Assembly: GCA_026706345.1 (NCBI GenBank)
Contig: JAPOYX010000161.1
Coordinates: 1-32,610 of the forward strand
Source: Gemmatimonadota bacterium
Lineage (GTDB): Bacteria; JAAXHH01
DNA: 32,610 nt
Reading direction: 5' to 3'
Of this stretch, positions 17,514-25,763 are shown piece by piece. A program made the translations under genes and the position numbers. Position 1 is the stretch's first letter. Each line of letters opens with the position of its first letter. The notes below the pieces were generated by a model. That model had not been told where the DNA came from. It was given only the letters and a program-made list of their open reading frames with translations, and did no database searches.

Positions 17514-18557
17514 TCAGCTCCGGAAGTGGTCGTACCCGTCCGGGCGCAGGGGCCTTCGTCCGGCGTGATCCGCAAATACACATCCGCGATCCTCGGATAC
17601 GCATTCGCCTATGGGGGTCAGGGGGGTTCCGGTGCGCTCCGCCAGTTCGGCCGCCAGGTGATCCACCCGGTCCGGCGCAACGGCGCACAACAGTTCGAAT
17701 TCCTCTCCGCTTTCCAGGGCCGTCCTCACGGGATCTAGCCGAAGATCCTCCATGGCCCGCCTGGTTTCATCCGCGATGGGCAGAGCGGTCCCGTCCAGGG
17801 TCAATCCGACCCCGCTGCCGCGACACAGGTGCAGGGCATCTGAGCTGAGCCCGTCGCTCACGTCGATCATGGCGTGGACCCAGCCGCTGCGGGCCAGTAT
17901 GCCGCCCTCGCGGACCCGGGGAACGGGCGTGCGGTGACGGAACAGCGCGTCTTCGAACCGGTCCGGCGGTCTCCCCGCGACCGGTTCCTCCCGCGCCGAC
18001 CGAAGCAGACGCAGACCGGCCTCGCTCGCACCCAGGTGCCCGGTCACGCACAGCGTATCCCCCACCCGGGCACACCCGCGCGTCGTGATATGTCTCCCTT
18101 CCGCTTCTCCTGTCACCGTGATGGAGACGACGGTCGGTCCGTCCGTCGAGCTCAGGTCACCACCGACGATGGATACGGAAACTCCGGTGTGCCGCGCCAG
18201 GTCGCGAAACCCCGCGTACAGCGCTTCCACGTCTTTCGCGGTGCGCCGGGCCGGAAGACAGAGGGTCGTCAACGCGTGCCTGGGCACACCGCCCATGGCC
18301 GCGATATCACTGTAGTTGGCGGCCAGGCTCTTCCATCCGATCTGCCGCCACGACGAGAAAGCGACGTCGAAATCAATACCTTCCACGAAGGTGTCGGTCG
18401 TCAGCAGGGTCGTCATGCCGGGCCCGGTCTCTACGGCCGCGGCGTCATCTCCGATCCCTGTCACGACGCTCGGATCCGGCTCGGGCAGCGCGGCCCTGAT
18501 GCGCCGGATCAGTTCGAATTCGCCGGGAAGACCCGCGCCTTCCTTCTGATTTGCCAC
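17514..18557 (-). CDS. thiL: thiamine-monophosphate kinase
   Basis: ThiL phosphorylates thiamine monophosphate to thiamine diphosphate, the active cofactor. The 347-residue protein shows GEFELIRRI at the start, GIGDDAA, the TTDTFVEGIDF segment, NYSDIAAMGG, IVGGDLS and DVSDGLSSD, all typical of this AIR-synthase-like family, and the length is normal. The start is GTG at 18557; the ATG a few bases upstream is out of frame. It lies 55 bases downstream of the large regulator gene in the same direction and may be transcribed with it. It ends convergently with the Rieske gene. Confidence 0.95.
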   Translation of the reverse strand: MANQKEGAGLPGEFELIRRIRAALPEPDPSVVTGIGDDAAAVETGPGMTTLLTTDTFVEGIDFDVAFSSWRQIGWKSLAANYSDIAAMGGVPRHALTTLCLPARRTAKDVEALYAGFRDLARHTGVSVSIVGGDLSSTDGPTVVSITVTGEAEGRHITTRGCARVGDTLCVTGHLGASEAGLRLLRSAREEPVAGRPPDRFEDALFRHRTPVPRVREGGILARSGWVHAMIDVSDGLSSDALHLCRGSGVGLTLDGTALPIADETRRAMEDLRLDPVRTALESGEEFELLCAVAPDRVDHLAAELAERTGTPLTPIGECVSEDRGCVFADHAGRRPLRPDGYDHFRS

Positions 18558-18612: not shown

Positions 18613-21426
18613 TCACGCGTCCTTCCCGAACCGCCCCTCGATCCGTTCCCGCGAGCGCGTGAAGATCTCTATGCCGGCCGTGACGCCGCCGCCGAAGAGC
18701 AGCCCCTCCAGGGCACCTAGGGCGACCTGGGTGGTGCGCCCGAACTCTCCCTCGCCGAAGATCGTCGCAATGGTTTCGAGCCGTATCTGCGATGCCCCGA
18801 AGGACTGCCGCATGATTTCCAGACTGCTGGTGAACATGTTGCCGCCCAGCACGCTCAGGGCGATACTGGCGATCATGCCCCCCAGCGCGCCGAAGACGAT
18901 ATAAAGAAAACTCCGCCACTGCCCGGGCCGCCTGGCCAGGTAATACGTGACGACCGGGCCGAGGGCCACGCCCGTGCCGATAAGGGTGCCCTCGAGACCC
19001 CCGGTAAGACCCGCGGGGTGCTGGCCGAACAGGGTTTCCAGGGTATCGGAGCTGTACAGGTTGAACGCCGCGCCCACCATCCCGCCGCCCAGCGCACCGC
19101 CCAGTACGCCGAGCCATCGACTGTATTTCCCCGATACGCGCCGCAGGGCGACCATGCCGAAGGACACGCCCGCACCGCCGAAAGCGCCGCCGAACAGGCC
19201 CAGGCCCGCCAGGACGAAAATAGGCGAGAGCGCATCGGACGGCAGACCGGAACTGGTAGCGGCGAGGGCGGTTCCCAGGAGTAGCCCGCCAAGCAGTCCG
19301 GCCACGGCGCCGCCGAACGTTCCGCCGATGCCTTGCTGCATGATGTCGATCCCGCCCTGTTGCAGGCGCATCAGTATGAAACCGACCATCACCATAACCC
19401 GGTACAGCCGGGAAAGTTTGATCGACCGGTCCTGTTCACGGAGAAAAGTCAGGCTGACCGCGCGCTGGAGGCGGCTCACGGACTCGTGGCCCGTGGGACG
19501 GGTCAGGATGGACTCCACGGCCGAACCGAACCAGTCCGCCAGTTCGATGCTCGCCGCCCTGCGCACTTTCAGCGCGGGATCCCGCAACGCGAGATGCCTG
19601 AGCCGGTTGTTCAGGGCCGCGCAGCGCACGGGCCGGGACGACTCCACGGCGCGTCGGCGGACCTCCTCGCGATCGTTGTACAGGGCATCCAATATCACGT
19701 TCAGCGCGTCCGGCACCCTTTCAACCAACCAGGCAGGCACGGGCAGATCCCTGTTGAGCAGGCTGATGCAAAGCAGGTACGCTTCCTGGCCGGAGACCCC
19801 GATTTCTTCCAGGTAGGGCGAGAGCAGATCCAGGCTTTCACGGTCCATGATGAGCTGGTAGGTCCGGTAATTCTCCACCGACCGTTCGAGCAGGCTGCGT
19901 GCCTGCTTTGCTTCGTAAACGCTGCCGGTCAGCCAGCGGGACACTTCGGGAATCAGGCATTCGTGGGCGAGTTCGAGCCACCCCTCTCCCTCCTGGTTTC
20001 GCCGCCGGACGATACGGGCGTCGACCAGTTCCCCGAGCAGGGTTCCAAGGGCACCGTCGTCGTACCGGTCGCCGGTCTGGATACGCGAAGCCAGTTCGGA
20101 CTCCCGGACGACGATGAGCCGTTCATCCGCGGAGATGAGCGCCAGAAGCACCTGCTGCACCACGGACAGGTCGGCCGCCGAAAACCGGCGGAGCACCCTT
20201 GCGAGGTAGTCGGCAAGGATTTGCGAAGCCCCGCCCAGATTGTCATAAGCCGACTCCGTGATCATGTTCCCCGTATCGCGCTGGTCGTAAAGCGTATCGC
20301 ACACGATCTGCAAATGGGGCGGGTCGACGGAGTCCTGGTCGGAGAGGTCTTCGAGCAGGCGGTTCACGAGCATGTCCTCGAACCGGCAGCCTACCCGCCA
20401 GGCGGGCCCCGTTATGGCCCGGGCCGCCTGTTCCGGGGATAGTCGGCCGAGCCGGTACTCGTGGTGGAAGATCTCCGGAACCACCGGTTTGAGCTGGCTC
20501 ATCTCCGCGAGCAGGTCCTCTCTCATCACGAATACGAACTGCAGCGGCAGGGTATCGTCCTCCATGACCGCTCCCAGTTCGCTGATGAACGCCTCCCGGC
20601 TCTTCGCATCGAGCAGGAGGAAGAACTCTTCGAACTGGTCCAGCATGACGACGAGCCGGGAGGATGGACCGGACCGGCGCCCGTGAAACAGTTCCCGAAG
20701 GGAAATATCGTCCGAACCGGCATCGTCTTCTCCGGTTCCAAGGACAAGCCGCCGGACGATGCGCTTCATGTGCTGCAACGGATCGGTAAAACTCCGGATG
20801 ATACACGCCCGGTGTCCCTGGTCCTGCAGCCAGGGGATGAGGCCGGCCCGAAGAATCGAACTTTTGCCGACGCCGGAACGGCCGTAGAGGAGGAACGACC
20901 GCCGGGAGAGGATCCTGGAGCAGATGTTCTCGATCTCCTCCTCGCGACCGAAGAACAGGCCCTGGTCGTTTTCGGTGTAATAGTCGAGGAACTTGTACGG
21001 CCGGGTCGGCTTGGCCTGAAGGGCCGGCGGGGTCGGTTCCTCCAGGATCTCCACCGCATCGCCGATGAAGACGTATCCATGCTTGGGTACCGTTTTGACG
21101 TAGCGGGGGTTCGACGCGTCGTCCCGCAACTGTTTTCGGATCGACTTGATACACTGGGTCAGCGCCGTATCGCTGACGATTACGTCCTCCCAGATTTCGT
21201 CGAAGATACGGTTCTTTTCCACCAGTTGCCCCGCGTTGGATACCAGCAGCACAAGTACGTCGAAATACCTGGAACTTAAAGGCAGCGTGGCGTCTTTCAG
21301 GCGAACCTGGCGGTTCTGGATGTCCAGCACGAAGTCGTCGAACCGGAAGCCTTTTGCGGCGGTCTGTTGCGTCATTCGGGGCTCAAGTGGACGAATTTCG
21401 GGGAGAAAGGCGCAGTATTCATACAT
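18613..21426 (-). CDS. winged-helix / STAND-like NTPase / multi-pass membrane regulator
   Basis: The 937-residue protein has three parts. Residues about 27-122 form an OmpR/CadC-type winged helix (FDDFVLDIQNRQVRLKDATL, LTQCIKSIRKQLRDD, VPKHGYVF). Residues about 145-520 form a P-loop NTPase of the novel STAND kind: the entry motif LFFGREEEIENI, Walker A G182-RSGVGKSS and Walker B RLVVMLDQFEE (257-267). A helical, HEAT-like stretch follows (about 520-660). The last 260 residues hold several glycine-rich hydrophobic segments (such as GGAVAGLLGGLLLGTALA), so the C-terminus is in the membrane. It is probably a membrane-tethered transcription regulator gated by a nucleotide switch. Signal and targets are unknown. 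A second possible start is the Met at 21375. It has its own promoter and palindrome upstream. Confidence 0.85.
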   Translation of the reverse strand: MYEYCAFLPEIRPLEPRMTQQTAAKGFRFDDFVLDIQNRQVRLKDATLPLSSRYFDVLVLLVSNAGQLVEKNRIFDEIWEDVIVSDTALTQCIKSIRKQLRDDASNPRYVKTVPKHGYVFIGDAVEILEEPTPPALQAKPTRPYKFLDYYTENDQGLFFGREEEIENICSRILSRRSFLLYGRSGVGKSSILRAGLIPWLQDQGHRACIIRSFTDPLQHMKRIVRRLVLGTGEDDAGSDDISLRELFHGRRSGPSSRLVVMLDQFEEFFLLLDAKSREAFISELGAVMEDDTLPLQFVFVMREDLLAEMSQLKPVVPEIFHHEYRLGRLSPEQAARAITGPAWRVGCRFEDMLVNRLLEDLSDQDSVDPPHLQIVCDTLYDQRDTGNMITESAYDNLGGASQILADYLARVLRRFSAADLSVVQQVLLALISADERLIVVRESELASRIQTGDRYDDGALGTLLGELVDARIVRRRNQEGEGWLELAHECLIPEVSRWLTGSVYEAKQARSLLERSVENYRTYQLIMDRESLDLLSPYLEEIGVSGQEAYLLCISLLNRDLPVPAWLVERVPDALNVILDALYNDREEVRRRAVESSRPVRCAALNNRLRHLALRDPALKVRRAASIELADWFGSAVESILTRPTGHESVSRLQRAVSLTFLREQDRSIKLSRLYRVMVMVGFILMRLQQGGIDIMQQGIGGTFGGAVAGLLGGLLLGTALAATSSGLPSDALSPIFVLAGLGLFGGAFGGAGVSFGMVALRRVSGKYSRWLGVLGGALGGGMVGAAFNLYSSDTLETLFGQHPAGLTGGLEGTLIGTGVALGPVVTYYLARRPGQWRSFLYIVFGALGGMIASIALSVLGGNMFTSSLEIMRQSFGASQIRLETIATIFGEGEFGRTTQVALGALEGLLFGGGVTAGIEIFTRSRERIEGRFGKDA

Positions 21427-21459
21427 TCCTCACAGAATACTCACCGGGACCTCATGCAA

Positions 21460-21471
21460 TCCATATATGGA
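21460..21471. promoter_or_regulatory. perfect palindrome at the regulator transcription start (candidate operator)
   Basis: TCCATATATGGA is a perfect 12-base palindrome. It lies just downstream of the -10 box of the minus-strand promoter, covering the expected transcription start, and between two divergent genes. Such a position suits an operator, most simply for self-control by the winged-helix protein. Confidence 0.45.
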
Positions 21472-21474
21472 ATG

Positions 21475-21503
21475 AATATAATCCCCTTATGAGCATATGT
21501 CTA
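21475..21503 (-). promoter_or_regulatory. sigma70-type promoter of the winged-helix/STAND gene
   Basis: Read on the minus strand, TAGACA (21503-21498, 5 of 6) is followed by exactly 17 bases and TATATT (21480-21475, 5 of 6). The start point would be near 21468, about 42 bases before the start codon at 21426. It is one of the two best promoter matches in the window. Confidence 0.55.
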
Positions 21504-21528
21504 ATCTTCCACCCTTTAGTAAATCCGT

Positions 21529-21579: not shown

Positions 21580-22227
21580 ATGTTATCCCATTTCTGCACC
21601 ATTCCCGAAGCCGTGGAAGAAATCAGGGCGGGCCGCGTACTGATCGTCATCGATGACGAAAACCGGGAGAACGAGGGCGACTTCATGGTGGCCGCCGAAA
21701 AAGTCACGCCCGAAATCATCAACTTCATGTCACGGTACGGACGGGGGCTGATCTGTCTGCCCACCACGAGACAGCGGCTTGAAGAGCTGGACATTCCGAT
21801 CATGGTCAACGGAAAGATGTCGATCGCGGACACGCCCTTCACGGTGTCCGTGGATGCCGTGAAGGGCGTTACCTCCGGCATTTCCGCGCATGACCGGGCA
21901 AAAAGCGCCCGATTGTTCGTAGAACCGGATACCGTGCCGGAAGACTTCGAACGCCCGGGACATCTCTTTCCGCTACGGGCACGCGACGGAGGCGTGCTGG
22001 AAAGGGACGGTCACACCGAGGCGACGGTCGACCTGATGAGACTGGCCGAACTCTACCCGGCCGGCGTCCTGTGCGAAGTGCTGGACGAGGACGGGTCCAT
22101 GGCCCGTCTGCCCCGGCTGATCGAAATCGCCGACGAGCATCATCTGAAGATCGCAACCATTAAGGACCTCATCGAATACCGGCTCGAAGAGGAACTCGTA
22201 CTGGAATTCGCCTGCAGCGGCGGATAA
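21580..22227 (+). CDS. ribB: 3,4-dihydroxy-2-butanone 4-phosphate synthase
   Basis: RibB makes the four-carbon precursor of riboflavin from ribulose 5-phosphate. The 215-residue protein has the metal and substrate motif DDENRENEGD (25-34), GLICLP, TVSVDA, GISAHDRA and RPGHLFPLRA followed by GHTEATVDL, all standard. It is the stand-alone form without the fused GTP cyclohydrolase II (RibA) domain found in many bacteria, so ribA must be elsewhere. The ATG follows GGGGG at a good distance. No FMN riboswitch is visible in the leader. It is divergent from the large regulator and lies upstream of the hpn genes. Confidence 0.95.
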   Translation: MLSHFCTIPEAVEEIRAGRVLIVIDDENRENEGDFMVAAEKVTPEIINFMSRYGRGLICLPTTRQRLEELDIPIMVNGKMSIADTPFTVSVDAVKGVTSGISAHDRAKSARLFVEPDTVPEDFERPGHLFPLRARDGGVLERDGHTEATVDLMRLAELYPAGVLCEVLDEDGSMARLPRLIEIADEHHLKIATIKDLIEYRLEEELVLEFACSGG

Positions 22228-22376
22228 GGCGACGGAATCCGGCTTAAGCCACGACCGGAACGAGGGGGATGCGAGCCGTCGCGGAACGGGTGATGTGCCC
22301 GGTCCGCGGCGGGTACGCTGCCGCCGGCCGTCAGCGGGTAAGCCCGACCACACGCAACATGGCCCGTCTGCCCCGG
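22098..22376 (+). repeat. 19-base exact direct repeat between ribB and the hpnC leader
   Basis: CATGGCCCGTCTGCCCCGG occurs at 22098-22116 inside ribB and again at 22358-22376 upstream of hpnC, 260 bases apart. Both copies read MARLPR in the frame of their genes, and the second offers an alternative in-frame ATG (22359) for hpnC. Confidence 0.8.
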
Positions 22377-22412: not shown

Positions 22413-23348
22413 ATGCCCCAGCTACCCGACTACCTGCCGGAAGCCGTGCTCCGGTTCGATGATCTCGCCCTTGACGCGCTGCCCGACGCAGGCGACTCTT
22501 CCGTAGCAGCCGCCCGCCTGTACTGCAGCCGCCTCGCACGCCGGCATTACGAGAATTTCATCGTCGTTTCCCGGTTCCTCCCCGCCGCGCTGCGACAGCA
22601 CTTCTACCACGTCTACGCCTACTGCCGGTGGTCTGACGACCTCGCCGACGAAACAGGCGATCCCGGATTGTCCCTTGAACTGCTCGAATGGTGGGACGCG
22701 GAATTGCAGGCCTGTTACGACCAAAGCGTACGACATCCGGTATTCATCGCCCTCCGGGAAACGATCGACCGCTTCGAGATACCGATTACCCCGTTTCGCG
22801 ATCTGCTGACCGCGTTCCGGCAGGACCAGGTGGTAACGCGTTACCGGACCTACGCCGACGTGCTCGAATACTGCCGTTACTCCGCCAATCCGGTGGGTCA
22901 CCTCGTGCTCTACCTGTGCGGCTACCGGGACAGGGAACGCCAGGCGCTGTCGGACGCTACGTGTACCGCGCTCCAACTGACCAATTTCTGGCAGGACGTC
23001 CGGGTGGACTTGGAAAAGGGCAGGATCTACTTGCCCCTGGAGGACCTGGACCGGTACCATTACACCGAGGCGGACCTCGAGGCCGGGGTCGTCGACGAGC
23101 GTTTCAGGGAACTGATGGCGTACCAGGTGGACCGGACGCGCAGGCTGTTCGAAGAAGGGCTCGGACTGTGCGGCCTGGTGGACGCGCGGGTCAGGCTGGA
23201 CATCGAGTTGTTCAACCGGTGCGGCGCGGCCGTCCTGGACCAGATCGAAAAACAGCGTTACGACGTGCTGTCCCGGCGGCCCGCCCTGTCATCCGCCCGG
23301 AAGACCGGCCTGTTGCTGAAATACGCACTGAAACGACTCTGGAGCTGA
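22413..23348 (+). CDS. hpnC: hydroxysqualene synthase HpnC
   Basis: HpnC is a squalene/phytoene synthase family protein that converts presqualene diphosphate to hydroxysqualene in the HpnCDE pathway. From the ATG at 22413 it has 311 residues. The first Asp-rich motif reads YCRWSDDLADE and the second QLTNFWQDVRVDLEKGRIYLP, as in HpnC. The reading frame is open upstream to 22269 with other possible starts at 22359 and 22269; 22413 gives the typical N-terminus (LPDYLPEAV), but no start has a clear ribosome-binding site. It is followed by hpnD 64 bases downstream. The three hpn genes form a transcription unit, possibly with ribB. Confidence 0.88.
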   Translation: MPQLPDYLPEAVLRFDDLALDALPDAGDSSVAAARLYCSRLARRHYENFIVVSRFLPAALRQHFYHVYAYCRWSDDLADETGDPGLSLELLEWWDAELQACYDQSVRHPVFIALRETIDRFEIPITPFRDLLTAFRQDQVVTRYRTYADVLEYCRYSANPVGHLVLYLCGYRDRERQALSDATCTALQLTNFWQDVRVDLEKGRIYLPLEDLDRYHYTEADLEAGVVDERFRELMAYQVDRTRRLFEEGLGLCGLVDARVRLDIELFNRCGAAVLDQIEKQRYDVLSRRPALSSARKTGLLLKYALKRLWS

Positions 23349-23412
23349 AACGGACCGCCCGCGATTCAGAGTGGTTGGCGAGCGTTGTCCGAAACGCTGG
23401 ATCACCGTTGCC

Positions 23413-24300
23413 ATGAACCTTGTGGATCGACAGCCCACCGACCGGGAAGCGTTGCGCCGTTCCTATGATTTCTGCCGCGAAATCGCGAAATCGAGGGCGA
23501 GAAACTTCTACTATTCCTTTATCGTCCTGCCGCCTGAGCGGAGACGGGCCATGTGCGCGGTCTACGCCTTCATGCGCCACTGCGACGATATCGTCGACGA
23601 GGAAGCCGGGGAGGCCGACAAGAAGACCCGGCTGAACGCCTGGCGCGAGACCCTGGACCAAGCCTATGACGGAACGCCGGCCGACAGCGGCGGCCTGTTG
23701 CCGGCGTTCCGGGATACGGTGAGGCGATTCGATATCCCGAGGGCGTACTTTGACGCCATCATCGACGGCGCGGAAATGGACCTGACCGTGACACGCTACG
23801 CCACCTTCGAGGACCTGTACCAGTACTGCTACCGCGTGGCTTCCGCCGTGGGACTGGTGTGCATACACATATTCGGATTCCGGGGCAAAGAGGCCAAACG
23901 GTACGCCGAGTCCTGCGGCATCGCCTTTCAACTTACCAATATACTCCGCGACGTGCGGGAAGACGCGGGGATGGGCCGAGTCTACCTGCCCCAGGAAGAC
24001 CTGGACGACTTCGGGTACTCGGAAGAGAACATACGGAACGGAGTCTTCAACGACGCGTTCCGGCGGCTGATGGTTTTCCAAGTGGAGCGCGCCAGAAGCT
24101 ATTACGACGAAGCGCTGCCGCTCCTTCCGCTGGTTCAGTCCTCGAGCCGGGCGTGTCTGGCGGCCATGATCGGCATTTACCGGGCGTGCCTCGAAGAGAT
24201 CCCCCGCCGCCACTACGACGTCTACAGCCGGCGCGTCAGCCTGTCCGCCTGGAAGAAGCTCGCCATTACCGCCCGGGCGCTGATCCGAAAACGCGTATGA
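23413..24300 (+). CDS. hpnD: presqualene diphosphate synthase HpnD
   Basis: HpnD condenses two farnesyl diphosphates to presqualene diphosphate. The 295-residue protein has the prenyl-diphosphate/Mg2+ motifs FMRHCDDIVDEE and QLTNILRDVREDAGMGRVYLP and the YDVYSRR end pattern typical of the family. The ATG at 23413 is preferred over the GTG at 23371, because the homologous N-terminus begins close to the REALRRSYDFCREIAKSRARN helix. Its stop overlaps the hpnE start by ATGA, showing translational coupling. Confidence 0.9.
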   Translation: MNLVDRQPTDREALRRSYDFCREIAKSRARNFYYSFIVLPPERRRAMCAVYAFMRHCDDIVDEEAGEADKKTRLNAWRETLDQAYDGTPADSGGLLPAFRDTVRRFDIPRAYFDAIIDGAEMDLTVTRYATFEDLYQYCYRVASAVGLVCIHIFGFRGKEAKRYAESCGIAFQLTNILRDVREDAGMGRVYLPQEDLDDFGYSEENIRNGVFNDAFRRLMVFQVERARSYYDEALPLLPLVQSSSRACLAAMIGIYRACLEEIPRRHYDVYSRRVSLSAWKKLAITARALIRKRV

Positions 24301-25763
24301 GCCAGGTAATCGTCATCGGGGGCGGACTGGCCGGACTGGCCGCTGCGGTCGCGCTGGCCGATGCGGGTCTCCAGGTCGAACTGTACGAAAGACGTCCGAT
24401 ACTGGGTGGCCGCGCGTCTTCCTTCATACACCCGTCGAGCGGCGAAAGGGTGGACAACTGCCAGCACGTGCTCCTGGGCTGCTGCGTCAACCTCCTCGAC
24501 TTCTACGCGCGCCTCGGTGTCCGGGACCGTATCGCCTTCCACGGGACCATTCCCTTCATCGACGAATCCAACCGGGTATCGGTCATCGGACCTTCCCGCC
24601 TCCCTCCGCCCCTTCACCTGTTTCCTTCGTTCCTGCGGCTGCGAACCATGGGTTTTCGGGACAAGCTTTCGATCGTCCGTACCGTGGCAGGCATGATTCG
24701 CCACGTTACGGGACATCGGGATACAGACAGCCTGGATGTACAACACGCCGCTGAAGCGCCACACGGCGCGGAGCCGTCCCCGGTTTCCATGGCCACCTGG
24801 CTCGCGACCCACGGAGCGACGGAACGGGCCGTGGAAGCCTTCTGGAAACCCTTCCTCATCAGTGCGCTCAACGATGAACTGGACGACATCGATGCCGAAT
24901 ACGGTATCAGGACGACCGTCCGGGCCTTTCTGATCAATCGCCGCGGGTACGAGGTGGGTCTGCCCGCCGTACCGCTGGGGGACCTGTACGCGCCCTGCAT
25001 AGATTACATCGAGCAGCGGGGCGGCCGCGTCGTGCTCGACCAGGGTGTTGCCGGCCTGTCGACCCACGGCGGCCTCGTGAATTCCATCTCGCTGCAGGAC
25101 GGTTCGTCCGTCGAGGCCGGGGCGTACCTGTCGGCCCTGCCCTTCGACGTCCTGCGCAGGCTGCTGCCCGAAAGCCATGCCTCGAATCCCTACTTCGCGA
25201 TGCTGAGCGGACTGTCGGTCTCTCCCATCACGGCCGTGCACGCCTGGTTCGACCGGCCCGTGACGGATCTGGACTACGCCGCGGTGATCGGTCGGAGGAT
25301 ACAGTGGATTTTCAACCAGTCCATTCGAGACCCCGAGACCTTTTCCACGGGTGACGCGGGCGCCTATCTCGGACTCGTGGTCAGCGCTTCCGATGAATGG
25401 ATGAAAATGCCGCAGCAGAGGATCATCAACCAGGTCATGGAAGATCTCGAGTCTCTGCTGCCCGCCGTGCGCCAGGCCGAACTGCTCAAGGCCGTCGTCG
25501 TCAAGGAAGGCAGGGCCACGTTCGCGCCTAGACCCGGTTGCGACGCGCTGCGCCCGGGACCATCCAGCCCCCTTTCCAACTTCTTCATCGCGGGCGACTG
25601 GGTGCAGACGGACTGGCCGGCCACCATGGAAAGCGCCGTGCGCAGCGGCTACCAGGCCGCCGAGGCCCTGCTGCGGAGCCAGGGCGTGCAGGCGCGCATC
25701 CTGAAATCCGAATTGCCCCTCGAAGGGCTCATGAGATTGCTGGCGGGGAAGCGGGACCTCTGA
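24297..25763 (+). CDS. hpnE: squalene-associated FAD-dependent desaturase HpnE
   Basis: HpnE reduces hydroxysqualene to squalene and resembles carotenoid desaturases. The 488-residue protein opens with the dinucleotide fold VIVIGGGLAGLAAAVAL, an ELYERRPILGGRASSF segment for FAD, and ends with FFIAGDWVQTDWPATMESAVRSGYQAA, the usual FAD C-terminal motif. The ATG at 24297 overlaps the hpnD stop by four bases. With hpnC and hpnD it forms a full farnesyl diphosphate to squalene route. No squalene-hopene cyclase gene (shc) follows inside the window, so hopanoid formation is inferred. Confidence 0.93.
   Translation: MSQVIVIGGGLAGLAAAVALADAGLQVELYERRPILGGRASSFIHPSSGERVDNCQHVLLGCCVNLLDFYARLGVRDRIAFHGTIPFIDESNRVSVIGPSRLPPPLHLFPSFLRLRTMGFRDKLSIVRTVAGMIRHVTGHRDTDSLDVQHAAEAPHGAEPSPVSMATWLATHGATERAVEAFWKPFLISALNDELDDIDAEYGIRTTVRAFLINRRGYEVGLPAVPLGDLYAPCIDYIEQRGGRVVLDQGVAGLSTHGGLVNSISLQDGSSVEAGAYLSALPFDVLRRLLPESHASNPYFAMLSGLSVSPITAVHAWFDRPVTDLDYAAVIGRRIQWIFNQSIRDPETFSTGDAGAYLGLVVSASDEWMKMPQQRIINQVMEDLESLLPAVRQAELLKAVVVKEGRATFAPRPGCDALRPGPSSPLSNFFIAGDWVQTDWPATMESAVRSGYQAAEALLRSQGVQARILKSELPLEGLMRLLAGKRDL

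Follow-up and report, generated by a model that had tools for sequence, protein, structure and literature searches.

A probable AfsR-like, membrane-embedded STAND activator of isoprenoid-lipid genes in three bacterial phyla

Bacterial regulators of the CadC/ToxR type combine an OmpR-type winged helix with one transmembrane helix and a periplasmic sensor and have no NTPase, and the activators MalT and GutR are soluble proteins with other DNA-binding domains. As far as the available part of the source goes, MalT and GutR are one-component STAND activators gated by inducer and ATP, with sugars as their inducers, and AfsR, a large SARP of Streptomyces, is a STAND regulator with an OmpR-type domain, which binds two 11-bp direct repeats near or overlapping the −35 element and whose STAND and TPR parts keep it inhibited until ATP is bound (PMC10936776). 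Among transmembrane transcription regulators surveyed, about 56% cross the membrane once and 27% contain more than two segments in the part of the survey available, and the word NTPase is absent from its main text (PMC10269533). Here we describe a regulator gene on contig JAPOYX010000161.1 (assembly GCA_026706345.1, deposited as a Gemmatimonadota bacterium; 32,610 nucleotides, analysed whole and called the window), which belongs to the phylum Latescibacterota. We consider it rather likely that its product is an AfsR-like, ATP-gated, membrane-embedded STAND activator of genes for isoprenoid lipids made from farnesyl diphosphate (FPP), and its relatives in three phyla probably turn on adjoining genes for squalene or for the cell-wall carrier lipid. 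Read from the sequence are the architecture, the gene pairing in three phyla, the operator, a near-fixed distance and polarity toward a −10 element, and extra sites before uppS units. The preliminary description of the locus had proposed a membrane-tethered, nucleotide-gated transcription switch; this fits all of our findings and is partly supported by them, membrane insertion and ATP gating being the parts that we infer.

The regulator gene (18613..21375, minus strand) encodes 920 amino acids. A program-made open reading frame (ORF) of 937 codons (18613-21426, minus strand) is indeed present in the window and had been taken as a 937-residue protein, but we moved the start to Met18, at 21375, because in 11 other genomes of the same genus the frame 5′ of the Met18 equivalent is open and contains no ATG, GTG, or TTG. 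A Trans_reg_C winged helix (PF00486) occupies residues 47-120 (21067..21288, minus strand), with a Pfam E-value of 3.5e-17 and 62.7 bits against a curated cut-off of 26.2, in line with the OmpR/CadC-type DNA-binding domain originally called. It is followed at residues 143-507 (19906..21000, minus strand) by an nSTAND1 NTPase (PF20703; E-value 5.6e-61, 207.7 bits against a curated cut-off of 27.1), whose Walker A (GRSGVGKSS) and Walker B (LDQFEE) motifs had been recognized correctly. Both are invariant in all eight rows of the regulator alignment, and among 14 further proteins scanned the Walker A pattern was present in all 14 and the Walker B pattern in 12. The Walker A lysine, formerly numbered K189, is K188 in the 937-residue numbering and K171 of 920. 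HEAT-like helices had also been proposed; the stretch in question (19519..19698, minus strand) is helical in the structure model, but its HEAT_2 match (E-value 0.071) falls below the cut-off.

Hydropathy and the structure model place a Gly-rich putative membrane domain at 18670..19398 (minus strand). Its six hydrophobic segments fall within residues 660-902 of 920, and residues 651-905 contain 20.8% Gly, which agrees with the roughly six Gly-rich segments first reported. Six or seven such segments were computed in 12 other full-length proteins, two partial ones having been excluded. The model of this domain is helical (mean pLDDT 68.6) and, together with the hydropathy, suggests insertion into the membrane. 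A Foldseek search with it gave no match below an E-value of 0.001; its structural matches are all helical, the top one being the mitochondrial carrier 6gci (Z 12.0). Part of the domain shows a weak structural likeness to Tim17/Tim22/Tim23-type helices (8e1m, Z 7.9; 6lo8, Z 7.0; and 5xtc_V, Z 8.3, a complex I chain that we take to be Tim17-like), where Z values of about 7 to 9 are within the chance range of helical models and unrelated rows reach 12, and no Pfam match to the Tim17 family was found in the regulator at E-values up to 1.

The regulator shares with AfsR an OmpR-type domain, a STAND NTPase and 11-bp repeats near −35, and by analogy may likewise be gated by ATP. AfsR, in the part of its description available, has BTA and TPR domains, whereas this protein has nSTAND1, HEAT-like helices and six hydrophobic segments; the word membrane is absent from the main text of the AfsR paper, and the targets and phyla differ (PMC10936776). 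No Pfam match to a BTA domain was found after the winged helix at E-values up to 1, the winged helix ending at residue 120 and nSTAND1 beginning at 143. Since the HEAT-like helices and membrane domain occupy the position of AfsR's sensor, the signal probably lies in the membrane. The likeness to MalT and GutR is that of one-component STAND activators. With CadC and ToxR the protein shares the OmpR-type winged helix, and it matches the PDB sequences of their DNA-binding domains; its score with the CadC model (62.1 bits against a cut-off of 400) is below threshold, and it differs from both in its six hydrophobic segments and STAND module.

The candidate operator lies at 21418..21455 (plus strand), upstream of the regulator gene and of a divergent row of genes. 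It comprises three clear direct repeats with a period of 11 bp (CTCAC, 21429-21433; CTCAC, 21440-21444; CTCAT, 21451-21455) and a degenerate fourth, TTCAT, at 21418-21422; read toward hpn or uppS it is CTCAC-N6-CTCAC-N6-CTCAT, with CTCAY-N6 as the general unit. A TATAAT −10 element of the divergent ribB-hpnCDE promoter (21477..21482, plus strand) stands 21 nt after the last repeat. The preliminary description had pointed to TCCATATATGGA at 21460-21471 as the operator-like site. When the divergent region was aligned within the genus, a conserved block was seen, but this palindrome was not conserved; it sits in the spacer of the divergent promoter, next to the conserved operator, and we rejected it. 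Directly after the −10 element, positions 21483-21520 are also strongly conserved in the genus. A riboswitch before ribB was considered and dismissed: at gathering thresholds the window gave no match in Rfam, and most shuffles fold better than the ribB leader itself (z 1.73; 193 of 200 shuffles at least as stable).

In the other phyla, three (A/G)TGAG units 11 bp apart occupy the same place. TGA triples of period 11 were found 5′ of the regulator gene in 13 of 18 representatives, compared with a mean of 0.10 and a maximum of 2 in 500 sets of dinucleotide shuffles, and every other period from 5 to 30 gave at most 1 of 18. For this test 18 of 28 upstream regions were used, with one entry for the whole genus; no region came from G007, which had too little sequence 5′ of the gene, or from G060, whose start is masked, and G013, whose repeats lie more than 150 bp from the start, was scored as a miss. 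The distance to the −10 element was measured on 20 sites, 17 on the regulator side and three on the uppS side, leaving out the own side of G222 (no clear box), G060 and eleven other genus rows. A TAnnnT box stands exactly 21 nt after the last repeat in 12 of them and at 20 nt in four more; shuffles reach at most seven at any offset. Since a −10-like box starts 20-21 nt after it, the last repeat lies at about −35. Tandem direct repeats of 11-bp period at about −35, as present here, are a feature of OmpR/PhoB/SARP-type DNA recognition, PhoB likewise using 11-bp repeats. Good conservation of the region around the recognition helix, TALTQCIKSIRKQL, is seen in 29 of 30 orthologues read, and four winged-helix paralogues from G000 and G059 (L002, L142, L145, and L146) differ there. 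The regulator itself presumably binds the operator.

The same geometry bears on the direction of control. The regulator might be an autorepressor, its binding to repeats near its own start codon blocking transcription of both its own gene and the divergent hpn or uppS operon; in five Caldithrix-phylum loci the third TGA does end 4-19 bp before the predicted regulator start (two of these starts being TTG codons taken mechanically). However, the distance to the regulator start varies from 4 to 54 bp, and exceeds 150 bp in G013, whereas that to the −10 element is 20-21 nt; the polarity toward uppS is unchanged at stand-alone uppS sites; and a last repeat at −35 is in the usual place of an activator. 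We therefore read the promoter geometry as suggesting activation rather than repression, and regard the autorepressor as improbable, though still the most serious competitor that we considered. Repression of its own gene could also be combined with activation of the targets.

The genes that diverge from the regulator in the window, all on the plus strand, begin with ribB (3,4-dihydroxy-2-butanone 4-phosphate synthase; 21580..22227), the first gene of the row in this genus. It is followed by hpnC (22413..23348; TIGR03464, 341.3 bits, cut-off 250.45), for which we chose the start by reading, the mechanical ORF beginning at 22269, and then by hpnD (23371..24300; TIGR03465, 308.8 bits, cut-off 278.6) and hpnE (24297..25763; TIGR03467, 432.7 bits, cut-off 283.05). 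HpnD, HpnC, and HpnE convert FPP to squalene, according to the part of the source available (PMC6439483). These genes had been overlooked as the likely target in the preliminary description, and the neighbourhood comparison that it had called for revealed a steady divergent pairing. Among Latescibacterota loci with a long enough contig, hpnC is divergent from the regulator in 12 of 12, namely G012, G013 and 10 of the window's genus (12 genomes, of which the 10 with contigs extending to hpnC were all positive). In G012 and G013, from other genera of the family, a zinc alcohol dehydrogenase gene is 5′ of hpnCDE, and neither ribB nor thiL was in the stretches fetched; in G015 a zinc alcohol dehydrogenase gene adjoins the regulator on the divergent side, after which the contig ends. 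A squalene-hopene cyclase (PF13243) was not found in six of the seven Latescibacterota genomes searched, G015 being the one that has it, and we therefore set aside the label of hopanoid regulator and claim only squalene synthesis. On the other side of the regulator, thiL (17514-18557) lies 3′ in the same orientation, with 55 bp between the two genes in the window; this pairing holds throughout the genus, and thiL was not found beside the regulator in the fetched stretches of G012, G013, and G014.

In the two other phyla the divergent gene is uppS, which encodes undecaprenyl diphosphate synthase, an enzyme that uses FPP as the HpnCDE set does. It diverges from and adjoins the regulator in all nine Caldithrix-phylum loci (with one short mechanical ORF in between in G261) and is the sole neighbour common to them. 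Four of five acidobacterial loci also have a divergent uppS, with a DUF4352-like gene in between in three, and a radical-SAM gene too in two of those. Pfam matches on examples back these gene assignments. PF01255 was confirmed in 12 of the 13 linked uppS genes, the thirteenth, in G224, being outside that search. Ten of the 12 linked genomes searched hold two uppS genes, and in G229 and G236 only the linked copy was found. For the UppS tree, which has 25 rows (13 linked and 12 other), we started from 31 PF01255 matches, left out fragments, rows without a locus and G014, and added G224. The tree splits the linked UppS, yet an approximately unbiased (AU) test does not reject a single clade for them (p 0.47), and we dropped the idea that uppS was recruited independently. 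In the Caldithrix phylum the linked UppS (L164-L172) form a deeply diverged clade (branch 1.37, support 100/100), apart from the second, ordinary UppS, and may make another chain length.

One full-length copy of the regulator is present in each of the 16 genomes of the window's phylum, and orthologues occur in 5 of 162 genomes from the class of an Acidobacteria metagenome-assembled genome (MAG) and in 9 of 40 from the phylum of Caldithrix sp. RBG_13_44_9. The regulator tree has one clade per phylum, and the nine Caldithrix-phylum proteins are 40-76% identical (median 44%). This distribution sits badly with the notion, raised at the outset as a phage sensor, that the protein belongs to a conflict (defence) system, with nSTAND1 as the phage-sensing part and either the winged helix or the membrane domain as effector. 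The nearest nSTAND1 relatives outside the family do carry SIR2_2 in five of six tested (L052, L053, L054, L055, and L060; not L056), HEAT and Gly-rich hydrophobic segments are present in L054 too, and nSTAND1 proteins are known in putative conflict systems, as the available part of one source has it (PMC10907252). Against this, the best PADLOC match has an E-value of 0.04, a pattern scan of viral contigs returned no relative of the regulator, the gene is single-copy in 16 of 16 genomes, and the neighbours and operator sites are steadily isoprenoid-lipid and envelope genes. We discarded the idea as very improbable. The SIR2-nSTAND1 proteins share the NTPase module and differ in having a SIR2-like N-terminus where the regulator has its DNA-binding domain. 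One of them, L054:9164-12262 from Chloroflexota, combines SIR2_2, nSTAND1, HEAT_2, and about five Gly-rich hydrophobic segments, that is, the same NTPase-HEAT-membrane chassis with a defence-type N-terminus. In the Deltaproteobacteria MAG CSMAG_234, nSTAND1 relatives are spread over at least eight contigs (L052, L053, L055, L057, L058, L059, L061, and L083); each of the three tested with Pfam combines SIR2_2, nSTAND1, and TPR, two with a guanylate-cyclase domain as well.

In a scan of 20 genomes allowing up to one mismatch, the operator gave 64 matches versus 18 for the reversed pattern, overlapping repeats being counted more than once for both. Of 30 genomes with the regulator, 21 contain operator and −10 element as one exact pattern, with 31 matches in all and none for the reversed control. 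Among 60 related genomes that lack it, drawn from the acidobacterial class and the Caldithrix phylum, 3 have four matches between them (reversed control, 1); in those two groups alone, 10 of 14 genomes with the regulator had 13 composite matches. The 31 comprise 18 in the regulator's own divergent region, four before uppS units and nine elsewhere. These counts speak to another explanation, in which the pairing is inherited synteny only and some other, unlinked regulator acts through the operator. Synteny does extend over the whole region in the window's genus, each phylum is one clade, and part of the synteny is indeed inheritance, because Caldithrix-phylum sub-groups share other neighbours too; yet uppS alone is common to all nine loci, and the operator with its −10 element tracks the regulator gene. 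We think it distinctly unlikely that inheritance and an unlinked regulator account for the pattern.

Sites away from the regulator add to the picture. In G222, whose acidobacterial regulator has no adjoining uppS, an exact operator stands about 180 bp before the distant uppS; in G218 and G219 the DUF4352-uppS unit is preceded, at about 55 bp, by a second exact operator. The Latescibacterota genome G014 has a site with one mismatch to the strict pattern, and a −10 element at 21 nt, before tsf-pyrH-frr-uppS, which holds the only uppS found in that genome. Within the window's genus, sites precede a TonB receptor gene in six genomes (G000, G001, G003, G004, G006, and G010) and an ArsP_1 permease gene in five (G000, G004, G006, G008, and G011), the permease being followed by a Band_7/SPFH domain in the three genomes whose stretch shows it; the G011 C49 and G010 C381 sites precede the permease and the TonB receptor, respectively. 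In the window's own genome, the TonB receptor gene behind the operator (L239:3043-5599) spans more than one frame, from a frameshift or an assembly error. Further sites precede a DoxX gene in G000 and a CreD-domain gene in G222. Three Caldithrix-phylum loci have a CreD-like gene after uppS; Pfam identifies CreD in L171 and L250, and the remaining two were assigned by reading. The operator near the G222 regulator points at a YjbQ gene (L161:5726-6199, TIGR00149) and not at uppS, and in G218 an exact operator with a −10 element precedes a serine hydrolase resembling AmpH (L248:3084-4424; 116.9 bits, NCBIfam cut-off 266).

Several points weigh against an activator of isoprenoid-lipid genes. Binding by the regulator, its effect on expression and the link to lipids are all predicted from sequence. 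The full-length structure model is poor (pTM 0.37), and the putative membrane topology depends on hydropathy and a middling domain model. Because the regulator's own loci served to define the operator, 18 of the 31 composite matches fall there by construction; three of the four uppS-unit sites are also among the 20 used for the −10 distance, for which we picked the anchor repeat by eye (a register other than the best-scoring one in G224 and G226); and four of those 20 have TAnnnA, at 21 nt, instead of TAnnnT. The G014 promoter on the regulator side faces an NTP_transferase gene that lies on the strand opposite to it, the regulator's own, with an alcohol dehydrogenase gene 1.4 kb further on, where the contig ends. 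No operator was found near uppS in G000, G001, G004, and G012, where uppS was located whole. Neither ribB nor several of the genes behind other sites (TonB receptor, ArsP_1 permease, DoxX, YjbQ) have a known isoprenoid link, and the latter sites may be part of the regulon or the targets of a related protein. The operator could also be bound by another winged-helix protein: G222 has an exact site, with no −10 element at 21 nt, beside a different winged helix-turn-helix gene. None of 17 such paralogue places in the operator-scanned genomes coincides with a site. Finally, part of the synteny is inheritance, given the further neighbours shared within Caldithrix-phylum sub-groups, and a single origin of all linked UppS is not rejected by the AU test.

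With these reservations, we propose that an AfsR-like activator would work as follows. The winged helix would bind the tandem CTCAY-N6 repeats, which stand in for the −35 region of the target promoters; the nSTAND1 module would toggle between closed and ATP-bound states, letting several copies line up on three to four repeats; and the Gly-rich membrane domain would set this switch by the state of the membrane. The targets would turn FPP into linear isoprenoid lipids, through hpnCDE (squalene) in Latescibacterota and uppS (undecaprenyl diphosphate) in Acidobacteria and the Caldithrix phylum, along with some envelope genes. Such targets suggest an isoprenoid lipid or the bilayer state as the signal, and a role in stress is possible. 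More tentatively, and with somewhat less than even confidence, we suggest that the pool of an isoprenoid lipid (squalene, undecaprenyl phosphate, or the like) is sensed directly by the membrane domain, a reading that the STAND module converts into cooperative DNA binding, and that this has been kept across the three phyla.

Our search of the open-licence literature found no paper naming both nSTAND1 and Trans_reg_C, none on one-component STAND winged-helix transmembrane regulators and, by title and start of abstract, none on an undecaprenyl-linked STAND winged-helix regulator or a dedicated uppS regulator. As far as that literature shows, the parts are known, and their combination, the operator and the isoprenoid targets are undescribed. 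To our knowledge, little is known of the transcriptional control of undecaprenyl phosphate and squalene supply in bacteria, and a defined protein, an operator of 11-bp period and named target promoters in three phyla make this question directly testable. The STAND NTPase, much discussed for its part in immunity, would here be used in what appears to be a membrane-embedded metabolic activator. If the regulator does read the lipid pool, it would be a one-protein bacterial counterpart, in its logic, of eukaryotic sterol sensing, steering FPP into membrane and cell-wall carrier lipids.

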